A stretch of DNA of 64,000 bases from Phycisphaerales bacterium (GTDB taxonomy: Bacteria; Planctomycetota; Phycisphaerae; Phycisphaerales; UBA1924). Under the pieces are notes generated by a model that saw only the letters and a program-made list of their open reading frames with translations, did no database searches and was not told the DNA's origin. Made by a program: the position numbers and the translations under genes. Location of the stretch: NCBI GenBank assembly GCA_022843545.1, contig JALHNL010000001.1, positions 1 through 64,000 of the forward strand, read 5' to 3'. Below, piece by piece: positions 7,148-10,374 of the stretch (positions within the stretch are counted from its first letter, which is position 1; each line of letters begins with the position of its first letter).

Positions 7148-8617
7148 GTGAGACCCCCCCAACCCCAGGCCCACCCCGTGGCTCCACTCCCCACTCACGA
7201 CCACCTCCCCGGGCTGGACTCCGGCCTGCTCGCGGCCGTGGCGGCGGGCCACGCGCGCCTCACCGGCGCTCAGGCGCTGGAGGTCTTCCACGGCCTGCCG
7301 CTCAGCGAACTGGGCCGCCTCGCCGACGCCCGCTGCCGCGTGATCCACGGCGACGCCCTGCGGACCTACGTCATCGACCGCAACATCAACTACACCAACG
7401 TCTGCAACGCCAAGTGCACCTTCTGCGCCTTCCGGCGCGACGGCGATGAACAGGACGCGTACACCCTCAGCCATGAGGCGATCCTGGACAAGATCGCCGA
7501 ACTCGTGGGCATCGGCGGAACGCAGATTCTCATGCAGGGCGGCATGAACCCTGCGCTGCCTCTGGACTGGTACACGCGCCTGCTCTCGAGCATCAAGAAC
7601 CGCTTCCCCGGCGTGCACATCCACGCCTTCAGCCCGCCCGAGTTCATCGAGTTCGTTCACTTCTTCAACCCGCCCGGCGCCACGCTCGAAGACAAGATCC
7701 GCTGGGTCATGGTCCGCCTGCGCGACGCGGGGCTCGACAGCGTCCCCGGCGGCGGCGGCGAGATCTTCGCCCCCGCGGTCCGCCGCAAGATTGGCCTGGG
7801 CAAGTGCGACGCCGAAGCCTGGCTCACCACCATGTACGTCGCTCACTCGCTGGGCATGTTCACCAGCGCGACCATGATGTTCGGGCACATCGAGGGCTAC
7901 GCGGACCGTGTCGACCACATGCTCCGCGTCCGGTCGTGGCAGGACAAAGCGCTCGAACTTAAGGGCCGCGCCGAGGGCCCCGCCGCCCACTACGTCTCGT
8001 TCATTTCCTGGCCCTTCCAGCGCGAGAACACCCCGCTTGGCCGCGTGCCCGACTGGGGCTCATCCCCCGGCGAGCTCGAGAGCCCCTTCCCCGGCGACGT
8101 CATCGCCGCGGGCGGCGACTTCCCCGCGGGCAAGCGCGCCGCGGACCTCTTTGACTACGACGCCATCGACCGCGCCAAGCACCCCACCGCCCACCTCTTC
8201 GGCAAGCGCGTGCGCATGAGCGGCTCAACCGACTACCTCCGCACGCAGGCCCTCTCCCGCTTGGTCCTCGACAACGTCTATTCCATCGGCGCATCGTGGG
8301 TCACCATGGGCCCGCACATCGGGCAGGTCGCCCTGGCCTACGGCGCCAACGACATGGGCAGCGTGATGATGGAGGAGAACGTCGTGTCCAGTGCGGGCAC
8401 CACCTACTGCCTCGACGAACCCGTGCTCTGCCGACTCATCCGCGGCGCGGGCTTCATCCCCGCCCAGCGCGACAACCGCTACGACCTCGTCACCGTCCAC
8501 TCCGGCGAAGACGCCCCCGACCTCCGCGTCACCGACTGGTCCAAGCACCGCGCCAAGGCCATGCACCAGCAGGCGCCCAAGGCGGCCAAGGTGAGCCTGA
8601 CCGTGGCCAAGGCCTAG
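7148..8617 (+). CDS. mqnC: Cyclic dehypoxanthine futalosine synthase (radical SAM)
   Basis: 489 residues. The radical-SAM cluster motif C86-x3-C90-x2-C93 lies in TNVCNAKCTFCAF. MqnC hallmarks follow: GGTQILMQGGMNP, IHAFSPPE, DSVPGGGGEIF and SATMMFGHIEG. The enzyme cyclises dehypoxanthine futalosine in the futalosine route to menaquinone. No other mqn gene is in the window. Relative to typical members (about 370 residues) it has an N-terminal extension and an insertion of about 90 residues between the FGHIEGYADRVDHM and TDYLRTQALSRL segments (ISWPFQRENTPLG...DYDAIDRAKHPTAHLFGK). The GTG at 7148 has TAGACT (7137-7142) five bases upstream; a GTG at 7178 is the alternative start. Confidence 0.93.
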   Translation: MRPPQPQAHPVAPLPTHDHLPGLDSGLLAAVAAGHARLTGAQALEVFHGLPLSELGRLADARCRVIHGDALRTYVIDRNINYTNVCNAKCTFCAFRRDGDEQDAYTLSHEAILDKIAELVGIGGTQILMQGGMNPALPLDWYTRLLSSIKNRFPGVHIHAFSPPEFIEFVHFFNPPGATLEDKIRWVMVRLRDAGLDSVPGGGGEIFAPAVRRKIGLGKCDAEAWLTTMYVAHSLGMFTSATMMFGHIEGYADRVDHMLRVRSWQDKALELKGRAEGPAAHYVSFISWPFQRENTPLGRVPDWGSSPGELESPFPGDVIAAGGDFPAGKRAADLFDYDAIDRAKHPTAHLFGKRVRMSGSTDYLRTQALSRLVLDNVYSIGASWVTMGPHIGQVALAYGANDMGSVMMEENVVSSAGTTYCLDEPVLCRLIRGAGFIPAQRDNRYDLVTVHSGEDAPDLRVTDWSKHRAKAMHQQAPKAAKVSLTVAKA

Positions 8618-8621
8618 ATCG

Positions 8622-8653
8622 ACCACGGCGGATCACGGCGGAGCACGGCAAAG
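8622..8653 (+). repeat. Left inverted repeat bounding GxxExxY remnant
   Basis: A 32-base stretch built from an ACCACGGCGGA / CACGGCGGAGCACGG phrase. It matches the reverse complement of 9084-9115 at 29 of 32 positions. It begins five bases after the mqnC stop codon. Together the two copies bracket the decayed GxxExxY gene. Similar 'CACGG' phrases beside GxxExxY genes are something I recall from other planctomycete genomes, but this was not checked. Confidence 0.85.
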
Positions 8654-8691
8654 ACCATGGGGTCTAAACCCGCGCCGGGACTCTGATTAAA

Positions 8692-9068
8692 TCAGAGCAC
8701 TCTTCGTACTATGCCATCGCCGAAGCGGGCAACGTTGAAATTGATGAGCAGGCCGACCCGCAAGCCCGCCAATCGCATGTACGTAATGAGCTGGGCTTCA
8801 TGCACGGGCAGAACAGCGTCCGCCGACTTCCACTCTACGAGAACAGCATCTTGCACGATGAGATCTGCTCTGAATCCTGCATCCAGCCTCAACCCGTCGT
8901 AAACGACCGGAATCGATCGCTACCTTTCAACCTTCAGGGCGGCCTTCCCGAGTTCGTGACACAGACAAAGTTCCTACGCCGATTCGAGCAGCCCGGTCCC
9001 AAGCCTCGATGCACCCTCCCGGCCGCATCGAGTATCACGCTGGTAATCTCGCCATGCAGCAGGCTCAT
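8692..9068 (-). pseudogene. GxxExxY-family protein, decayed (one frameshift, two stop codons)
   Basis: Reading the minus strand, the N terminus MSLLHGEITSVILDAAGRVHRGLGPG matches the start of GxxExxY proteins (PDDEXK-like superfamily). One base is then missing near 8987, after which the frame gives LLESA-stop(8974-8976)-ELCLCHELGKAALKVER-stop(8930-8932)-RSIPVVYDG. It continues intact as LRLDAGFRADLIVQDAVLVEWKSADAVLPVHEAQLITYMRLAGL...INFNVARFGDGI. The order and spacing match the whole family (about 125 residues), so this is a full-length gene killed by one frameshift and two nonsense changes. A CTCTGAT-TAA-ATCAGAG dyad (8681-8697) overlaps its stop. It is enclosed by the inverted repeats at 8622 and 9084. 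Confidence 0.88.
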
Positions 9069-9083
9069 CGCCCCCTCCGCATT

Positions 9084-9115
9084 CTTCTCCGTGCTCCGCC
9101 GTGTTCCGCCGTGGT
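9084..9115 (-). repeat. Right inverted repeat bounding GxxExxY remnant
   Basis: Reverse-complement partner of 8622-8653 (29 of 32 identical). It lies 16 bases upstream of the pseudogene start, between it and the convergent-side end of the aminopeptidase gene (stop at 9127). Confidence 0.85.
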
Positions 9116-9126
9116 AAACCAAGGCC

Positions 9127-10374
9127 TCAACCCCGCAGCGCCGACTCCACATCCTTCACGCTCTTGGGGATCATCGCCGACATCACCTCGCACCCGCCAC
9201 GCGTCACGAGCACGTCGTCTTCGATGCGCACGCCCATCTTCTTCTCCGCGATGTACAGCCCCGGCTCGATGGTCAGCACCATGCCCGGCGACAGCGGCGT
9301 GCTGGGGTTGGCGTCGTGCACCTGCAGGCCCAGGTGATGTCCGATCCCGTGGATGTAGTAATCCTGCACCCCGCGCTTGCTGAACACCGCGCGGGTGGCG
9401 TTGTTCACGTCGGTGATGGTCGCCCCCGGCTTCACCGCCTTGATGGACGCCAGTTGCGCCTGCAGCACCAGTTCGTACAGATCACGCTGCTCGCTCGTGA
9501 AGCGCCCGCCCACGGGATACGTCCGCGTGATGTCGGCGCAGTACCCGCCATACTTGGCCCCCGAGTCGATCACCAGGAGGTCCCCCGGCTCGGTGGGCTG
9601 GTCGTTGGCGCGGTAGTGCAGCACCGTGCCGCGCAGGCCCGAGCCCACGATCGAGTCGTACGCGGTTCCGCTCGCGCCAAGCGCCCGATACGTCTCTTCC
9701 AGCGCGGTCTGGATCGCCTTCTCCCCCATCGCCAGGCGGATGGCCCCCATCGCCGCCTTGTAGCCCCCCGCGGTGATGTCGATCGCCTTGCGGATCAGCG
9801 CCACCTCCGCCGGCGACTTCACCGCCCGCATCATCGGCAGCACGCTCGTCTTGTCCTCGATCCCCACGCCCACCATCCGCTCCGCCACCTTGCGGAACGT
9901 GCCCAGGTCGGCCGACAGCGGCGCGACGTAACTGCCGAACGGATGCAGGCAGGCCAGCCGCTTGCAGCGCCGCGCCGCGCCCGCCAGCAGCTCCGGCAGC
10001 GCGGTGGTGCGCATCACGTGCTCAAACCCGTACCGCTTCTTCAGGTCCGTGCTGATCGTGTCGCGATAGCCGTCCCAGCGCTCCAGTTCCGGGTTCAGCG
10101 GGCGCAGCAGCAGCACGATCCGCCGCTCCGCGTCCTCGTTCGACGCGTCAAAGAGCACCGCCGCCCCGGGCTCGTCGGTGATGCCCGTGAGATACACGAA
10201 CATCGGGTCCGGCTCGTAGTGGTGCCCGCCCGCGTCGCCCGAGAAGATCAGCCCCACCGCCCCGCCCAGTTCCTTCTGCACTCGCGCGCGCCGCTGCGCA
10301 AACTCCGAAAGCGGGATGCCGGCGGGCCCGGCGGAGGAGGCGACGGTCTTGGGCGAGCGGGTGTTTTTGAGCAT
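9127..10374 (-). CDS. pepP: Xaa-Pro aminopeptidase (aminopeptidase P family)
   Basis: 415 residues, M24B metallopeptidase that removes N-terminal residues preceding proline. The N-terminal AMP_N domain (about 20-150) contains IFSGDAGGHHYEPDPMFVYLTGITDEPGA. The catalytic pita-bread domain shows the dinuclear metal ligands: Asp in VIDSGAKYGG, Asp in CADITRTYPVGG, His in GIGHHLGLQVHD, Glu in TIEPGLYI and Glu in VRIEDDVLV. The ATG at 10374 has TACAGT (10380-10385) exactly five bases upstream and no Shine-Dalgarno. The gene lies 27 bases downstream of tilS on the same strand, so the two may share a transcript as well as having this internal promoter. Confidence 0.94.
   Translation of the reverse strand: MLKNTRSPKTVASSAGPAGIPLSEFAQRRARVQKELGGAVGLIFSGDAGGHHYEPDPMFVYLTGITDEPGAAVLFDASNEDAERRIVLLLRPLNPELERWDGYRDTISTDLKKRYGFEHVMRTTALPELLAGAARRCKRLACLHPFGSYVAPLSADLGTFRKVAERMVGVGIEDKTSVLPMMRAVKSPAEVALIRKAIDITAGGYKAAMGAIRLAMGEKAIQTALEETYRALGASGTAYDSIVGSGLRGTVLHYRANDQPTEPGDLLVIDSGAKYGGYCADITRTYPVGGRFTSEQRDLYELVLQAQLASIKAVKPGATITDVNNATRAVFSKRGVQDYYIHGIGHHLGLQVHDANPSTPLSPGMVLTIEPGLYIAEKKMGVRIEDDVLVTRGGCEVMSAMIPKSVKDVESALRG

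Follow-up and report, generated by a model that had tools for sequence, protein, structure and literature searches.

GxxExxY genes with a predicted nuclease fold lie between inverted triplet repeats that are dispersed through bacterial and archaeal genomes

The mqnC-pepP spacer in the 64-kb stretch of DNA analysed here (the window) is occupied by a GxxExxY (PF13366) pseudogene on the minus strand, which is flanked by an inverted triple repeat, ACCACGGCGGATCACGGCGGAGCACGG, with 0 copies expected by chance in 64 kb (Table 1). The inverted arms (8610-8654 and 9083-9127) are 84% complementary over 45 nt, a length inflated by an AGGCCT palindrome beyond the true arm, and the conserved arm is approximately 33 nt long. 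The core, ACCACGGCGGANCACGGCGGANCACGG, is found at 8622-8648 (+) and 9089-9115 (-), with no third site in the window and none in 100 shuffles, and the window triplet reads ACCACGGCGG AT CACGGCGG AG CACGG. Because mqnC has its stop at 8617 and pepP, on the minus strand, has its stop at 9127, the element fills the spacer. The pseudogene matches PF13366 (E 1e-17, from one open piece) and TIGR04256 (E 8e-19) and no other family, and a whole-genome search recovers it at 8710-9009 with an E value of 5e-30 and 2 TAG codons inside. One TAG (8974-8976) stands in place of the Y of GxxExxY and the other lies at 8920-8922; the frameshift is immediately ahead of the first stop, beside the LGPG motif, and the downstream D, ExK, and HEAQ residues are still legible. 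The arms and both profile matches confirm the preliminary description of this DNA, which had reported a pseudogene with one frameshift and two stops between inverted repeats in the mqnC-pepP gap. A stop is also present inside 4 of the 80 GxxExxY genes of a GTDB-wide set, so a decayed copy such as the window gene is nothing exceptional. A search of 30 genomes gave an mqnC match in 28 others, and in none of these was pepP found within 1.5 kb of mqnC. The window MqnC (7148-8617) scores 395 against the TIGR03699 equivalog cut-off of 428, and its match to this model is in two pieces with residues ~300-358 between them.

Table 1. Features of the element in the mqnC-pepP spacer of the window
Feature	Position	Strand	Remark
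Left arm, triad of three CACGGCGG-type units with a 10-nt period (3,3 spacing)	8622..8654	+	Exact triad; 14 copies in genome; reversed-pattern control 0
Right arm, inverted triad with the same unit spacing as the left arm	9083..9115	-	Arm-arm spacing identity is usual (68/71 loci)
GxxExxY pseudogene (PF13366 / TIGR04256, PD-(D/E)XK nuclease-like)	8692..9068	-	Frameshift and 2 TAG
CCAAGGCCT, left copy of the 9-nt direct repeat outside the arms	8607..8615	.	Without general counterpart at other loci
CCAAGGCCT, right copy of the 9-nt direct repeat	9119..9127	.	

When up to 3 mismatches are allowed, 12 of the 14 triad copies in the window's genome (3.42 Mb in 149 contigs, 92.6% complete) lie away from the window gene, single or paired, and the other 2 are the window arms. 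The CACGGCGG repeats of this genome look like relics of the activity of the now dead nuclease gene. One gene-less region (G000 C7:42364-42590, L011) holds nested inverted triad pairs, with CACGGCGG in the outer and CACGGAG in the inner pair. Three further GxxExxY genes are present in the genome: the gene on contig C55 has a repeat remnant on one side only, the gene on C105, between dnaJ and groEL, has degenerate arms, and the gene on C14 has no arms and a 3-mismatch triad ~400 nt downstream. The Y1 transposase family PF01797 gave no match in this genome, which nonetheless carries the repeats.

We examined the 30 best GxxExxY loci from 150 genomes of the window's family and, in a search across all prokaryote species genomes, the best 80 of 586 (the GTDB-wide set), which come from planctomycetes, proteobacteria, Bacteroidota, Chloroflexota, Acidobacteria, cyanobacteria, Omnitrophota, two archaea, and others. 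A triad lies within 300 nt upstream (left) of the gene at 83 of 113 loci, downstream (right) at 82 of 113, and on both sides at 71 of 113. Control regions 1 kb further out contain a triad at 3/85 (left) and 1/85 (right) loci, and mqnC loci, used as a negative control, at 1/29 (left) and 0/29 (right). Both arms are present at 50 of 74 GTDB-wide loci, and the arrangement that the preliminary description had recognised at one site, a GxxExxY gene in a small unit bounded by terminal inverted repeats, therefore holds across phyla. Intact armed genes include those of a Rhodocyclaceae genome (L083) and of Stieleria tagensis (L085). When each upstream flank is compared directly with the reverse complement of its own downstream flank, a score of at least 40 is reached at 34 of 74 usable loci, compared with 3.9% of mismatched pairs, and an inverted flank-to-flank match is found at 21 of the 30 family loci. 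An arm is ~30-50 nt long and consists of three direct units 8-10 nt apart, with CACAGAG, CACGGAG, CGCAGAG, CGCGGAG, CACGAAG, and CACAAAG as unit variants and CACGGCGG in the window; most elements are 420-620 nt long, with the GxxExxY gene as sole content.

The two arms of an element resemble each other. The unit spacing is equal in the left and right arms at 68 of 71 loci (mean 19.3 and maximum 33 in 20,000 shuffles). Arms of one element have an identity of 0.89, compared with 0.77 for arms of different elements in the same spacing class. No target-site duplication is evident at the 71 loci, where shared flank strings have a mean of 4.65 versus 4.45 in shuffled pairs and no offset is prominent; the window element, with its CCAAGGCCT direct repeat, departs from this pattern (0.1 expected in 71 loci).

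In an alignment of 76 sequences, E22 (of GxxExxY), D62, and Q86 are invariant, and ExK is conserved in at least 90%. The AlphaFold2 model (pLDDT 95) shows a restriction-endonuclease fold, and the closest solved structure is SSO0001 (4ic1; Z 9.4, 3.2 Å rmsd, 95 residues), followed at Z ~6-8 by other restriction-endonuclease-like proteins and Hjc (1gef; Z 6.8, 3.1 Å rmsd, 83 residues). Foldseek alone returned nothing below E 0.001, a search of the PDB by sequence returned no GxxExxY match, and Cas4 models show weak sequence similarity (E 0.003 or worse). The fold is thus like that of Cas4-like and archaeal Holliday-junction resolvase nucleases, whereas the GxxExxY protein is much smaller and its sequence similarity to them is weak. 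From the modelled fold and the catalytic residues, armed GxxExxY is a small predicted PD-(D/E)XK nuclease, and the assignment of these proteins to a nuclease-like superfamily in the preliminary description is borne out by the model. TnsA of Tn7-like elements, which have a TnsB-type transposase partner and defined ends, is also a PD-(D/E)XK protein. The window gene and all armed genes are members of the GxxExxY / PDDEXK_3 family (TIGR04256, PF13366), and flanking repeats are not mentioned in the retrieved TIGR04256 and PF13366 entries.

A search with the arm-less C14 protein gave matches in 45 of 46 genomes, a count that includes weaker matches to the other type, and yielded 30 C14-type loci, 29 of them usable. 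Arms are found at 0 of these 29 loci; the ExK lysine (K74) is lost in 29/29, E22 in 20/29, and D62 in 7/29. Among the 76 aligned intact genes, the lysine is kept in 75 and E22 and D62 are kept in all 76; E22 formed part of the search pattern for the GTDB-wide set, and K74 and D62 did not. By these residue comparisons, the GxxExxY family has at least two types, one armed and predicted to be catalytically intact, and one arm-less with the predicted catalytic lysine lost. The arm-less paralog (G000 C14:7497-7841, L003; L306-L334) is widely conserved and looks domesticated. The earlier suggestion that repeats flank GxxExxY genes elsewhere thus stands for the catalytically intact type and fails for the arm-less paralog.

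Triads are also dispersed without the gene. They are present in 42 of 43 GxxExxY genomes outside the family (chosen from the 80 loci), with up to 286 copies and 0-4 in controls. In eight genomes, the dispersed triads resemble the arms of the GxxExxY gene of their own genome (permutation p 0.0003), and the test fails in G078 (0/18) and G050 (4/39) when these are taken singly. G078 contains ~20 near-identical copies of one ~40-nt unit, mostly single, at unrelated sites. In four genomes listed in full, neighbouring triads within 600 nt are convergent in 24 cases, divergent in 1, and tandem in 14, and 3 of the 24 convergent pairs are GxxExxY genes. Most gene-less pairs converge, the distance between arm starts being 37-226 nt, and the only gene-sized convergent pairs in these four genomes (three, 407-467 nt from start to start) are all GxxExxY genes; in an archaeal genome, 12 of 13 convergent neighbour pairs are gene-less and the 13th is a GxxExxY gene. 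The interiors of 12 gene-less pairs gave no blastn match to one another or to six GxxExxY bodies of four genomes, so the gene-less pairs are not deleted elements. An origin as MITEs, whose interior derives from a parent by deletion, is ruled out by these unrelated interiors. Folded singly with RNA parameters, the arms of L083 and L109 give 0 kcal/mol, a single G078 unit -0.3, and the window arms about -6; the long stem comes from the inverted pair, and single arms have no hairpin of the REP type. The idea in the preliminary description that GxxExxY is the cargo of a simple mobile unit is upheld as far as the bracketed unit is concerned, while the dispersed gene-less repeats fit a REP-like partner enzyme better: GxxExxY looks like the partner enzyme of the repeat, not its cargo.

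The number of triads varies with the presence of the gene. In the 150 family genomes, the best PF13366 match is bimodal, and we took matches with E below 1e-30 as strong and the triad count minus the reversed-pattern control as the excess. The median excess is 28 in genomes with a strong GxxExxY (n=79) and 2 in those without (n=71), and the difference has this direction in 16 of the 17 genera that include genomes of both groups (p 0.0003); the exceptions are an excess of at least 10 in 10 of the 71 genomes without a strong GxxExxY and below 5 in 6 of the 79 with one. The triad number is thus tied to intact GxxExxY, although, with regard to the earlier question of repeats without the gene, gene-less copies outnumber the arms, as in the window's genome. 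When the genomes are also split by a strong Y1 gene, the medians are 53 with GxxExxY and Y1 (n=48), 15 with GxxExxY alone (n=31), 3 with Y1 alone (n=19), and 2 with neither (n=52), so GxxExxY is the main correlate of triad number and Y1 adds to it. The higher count with both genes could possibly reflect a helper function or a general tolerance of repeats. The Y1/RAYT genes of seven of the same genomes have their own, different inverted repeats in 20/20 cases (of the GCCCC...ACGGGTGGAGCG type and others), and triads are found at their ends in 0/20, with a single triad 315 nt off one gene. The known REP-RAYT arrangement thus emerges with this method, and the triads are not RAYT repeats; these different repeats and the Y1-alone median rule out RAYT REPs as the origin of the triads. 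RAYT (Y1) loci are abundant in the window's planctomycete family (L275-L294, in G066, G091, G050, G146, G137, G142, and G099).

These counts bear on the idea that GxxExxY is a passenger, with some transposase encoded elsewhere in the genome recognising the triads and moving both bare repeats and triad-flanked genes. Most triads are gene-less and their number rises with strong Y1 (53 versus 15), as this would predict, and at L151:640-1236 (G066) two convergent triads at a distance of 730 nt enclose an ORF of 198 residues that has no Pfam match, possibly a second passenger or partner. We nevertheless regard a passenger role as unlikely: the Y1 genes tested carry repeats of their own and no triads in their flanks, Y1 without GxxExxY goes with very few triads, and each gene-sized convergent pair in the four genomes is a GxxExxY gene.

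Gene and arms are gained or lost together at orthologous sites. In the groEL-dnaJ spacer of genus g23, the element is present in G108 and G082, the spacer is short in G022, G136, and G141, where ~44-77 nt separate the matched flanks, and in G145 (L222) and G126 (L224) it is taken up by other sequence that contains open frames; no triads were found in this spacer in G022, G136, G141, G145, or G126. The spacer is a hot spot, the small open frames in L222 and L224 being unrelated and one of them macrodomain-like by eye. In genus g51, six genomes (G050, G146, G114, G148, G142, and G137) have an element in the spacer adjoining an aldehyde dehydrogenase gene; in G091 the spacer contains a GxxExxY gene that belongs to another clade and is inverted, and in G128 it is empty, at 19 nt. 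At a second site, 1 kb from the first, G050 and G114 again have an element and G128 is again empty. Empty sites of the kind that the preliminary description had proposed to look for are thus found for other GxxExxY copies. The flanks of the empty spacers are ~82-93% identical, too diverged to define the target.

The possibility that GxxExxY is a selfish homing nuclease that enters pre-existing inverted triad pairs, the triads being an older host repeat such as terminator-like hairpins, would be served by the compact gene-less convergent pairs, which are common and could be empty targets. It is distinctly improbable in our view, because the orthologous empty sites have neither triads nor gene, triads are few or missing in genomes that lack a strong GxxExxY, and arms match better within one element than across elements.

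Six congeneric genomes compared at the aldehyde dehydrogenase site show changes on both arms at 11 of 34 arm positions (20 cells versus 7.3 shuffled, 0/500). In the gene tree of this site, only G050, G148, and G146 form a supported clade (97/96), and the unplaced G114, G137, and G142 may be separate insertions at the same site; because only three of the six genes form such a clade, the proof of concerted evolution from these arms is weakened. Co-change of this kind is also what a pairing constraint would give if the triads were host hairpins (terminators or nucleoid sites) bound by a repressor-like GxxExxY without any mobility, and Rfam, which gave no match at six loci, neither supports nor excludes a described RNA role. 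We consider such a regulatory or structural role highly improbable, given the recent burst of near-identical single arms at unrelated G078 sites, the presence/absence between congeners, and the catalytic residues that are kept with the arms and lost in the arm-less paralog.

We consider it probable that intact GxxExxY and the triads form one selfish or mobile system, like REP/RAYT in its arrangement and with an unrelated enzyme. Movement is deduced from presence/absence and copy number. Counting against a mobile partnership, no transposition event was seen, and the loci compared include no pair of near-identical junctions. GxxExxY matches number only 8 in 72,556 plasmid records and 0 in 50,697 phages, with none in PHROGs; these hits are too few to follow variation within a species, and the near absence is odd for a freely mobile element. 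The groEL-dnaJ and aldehyde dehydrogenase addresses recur in other genera and account for 13 of the 30 family loci; this recurrence could be repeated insertion or old vertical inheritance, and the latter would count against mobility. In the proposed partnership, the GxxExxY protein would bind the three units of an arm and cut DNA at or near the arms, and repair of the break, for example by fold-back or template switching, would produce an inverted copy of the arm and maintain the likeness of the two. Such repair would spread or homogenise the arms without target duplication, and inverted fold-back copying would account for the convergent pairs, their unrelated interiors, the matched arms, and the absent target duplication.

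According to PMC3733652, REP/RAYT (REPtrons, REPINs) and TIR/TIRYT systems likewise consist of a short gene between inverted short repeats, and their repeat is likewise dispersed without the gene, singly and as close inverted pairs. GxxExxY shares with REP/RAYT the placement of the gene between inverted, genome-dispersed repeats. However, the REP/RAYT enzyme is an HUH/Y1 (IS200/IS605-type) transposase, whereas GxxExxY has a PD-(D/E)XK nuclease fold, and a single REP is a palindromic hairpin, whereas a single triad is a triplet of direct units. Because both enzyme class and single-repeat structure depart from the definition, we do not file the triad system under REP/RAYT. Some TIRs reported in PMC3733652 share the motif GGGGWSAS, which is unlike the CACRGAG triads. 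MITEs and IS elements likewise have terminal inverted repeats around a small unit, and gene-less inverted pairs, but the GxxExxY elements have neither target duplication nor transposase. No description of the GxxExxY-triad association was found in the open-access literature (PMC), and the portions of PMC8934634 and PMC12085832 that name GxxExxY contain unrelated annotations only. The departures from the REP/RAYT definition and these searches, which covered open-access text only, point to a kind of mobile DNA that is so far undescribed.

We lean slightly towards the broader proposal that these elements constitute a cross-domain class of minimal mobile DNA, undescribed so far, in which a nuclease of ~120 residues without a transposase would, by break repair, spread its own triplet ends and keep them evolving in concert. 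In the chromosomes of bacteria and archaea the nuclease would leave behind orphan arms, dozens to hundreds of them, and a domesticated, catalytically dead paralog would have arisen from it. GxxExxY proteins appear in the annotation of many phyla with no assigned function, and the triads, a common type of intergenic repeat, are likewise unexplained; linking the two makes both testable together, with one protein, one DNA motif, and one catalytic mutant. If the proposal is true, GxxExxY would be a second enzyme class, besides the RAYT transposases, with a dispersed-repeat partnership and possibly with DNA movement free of a transposase. It would also account for the repeat-encoded N-terminal tail that is common in GxxExxY proteins: in the eight cases read, the left arm can code for the tail of the protein, which is NHRDTETQR-like.
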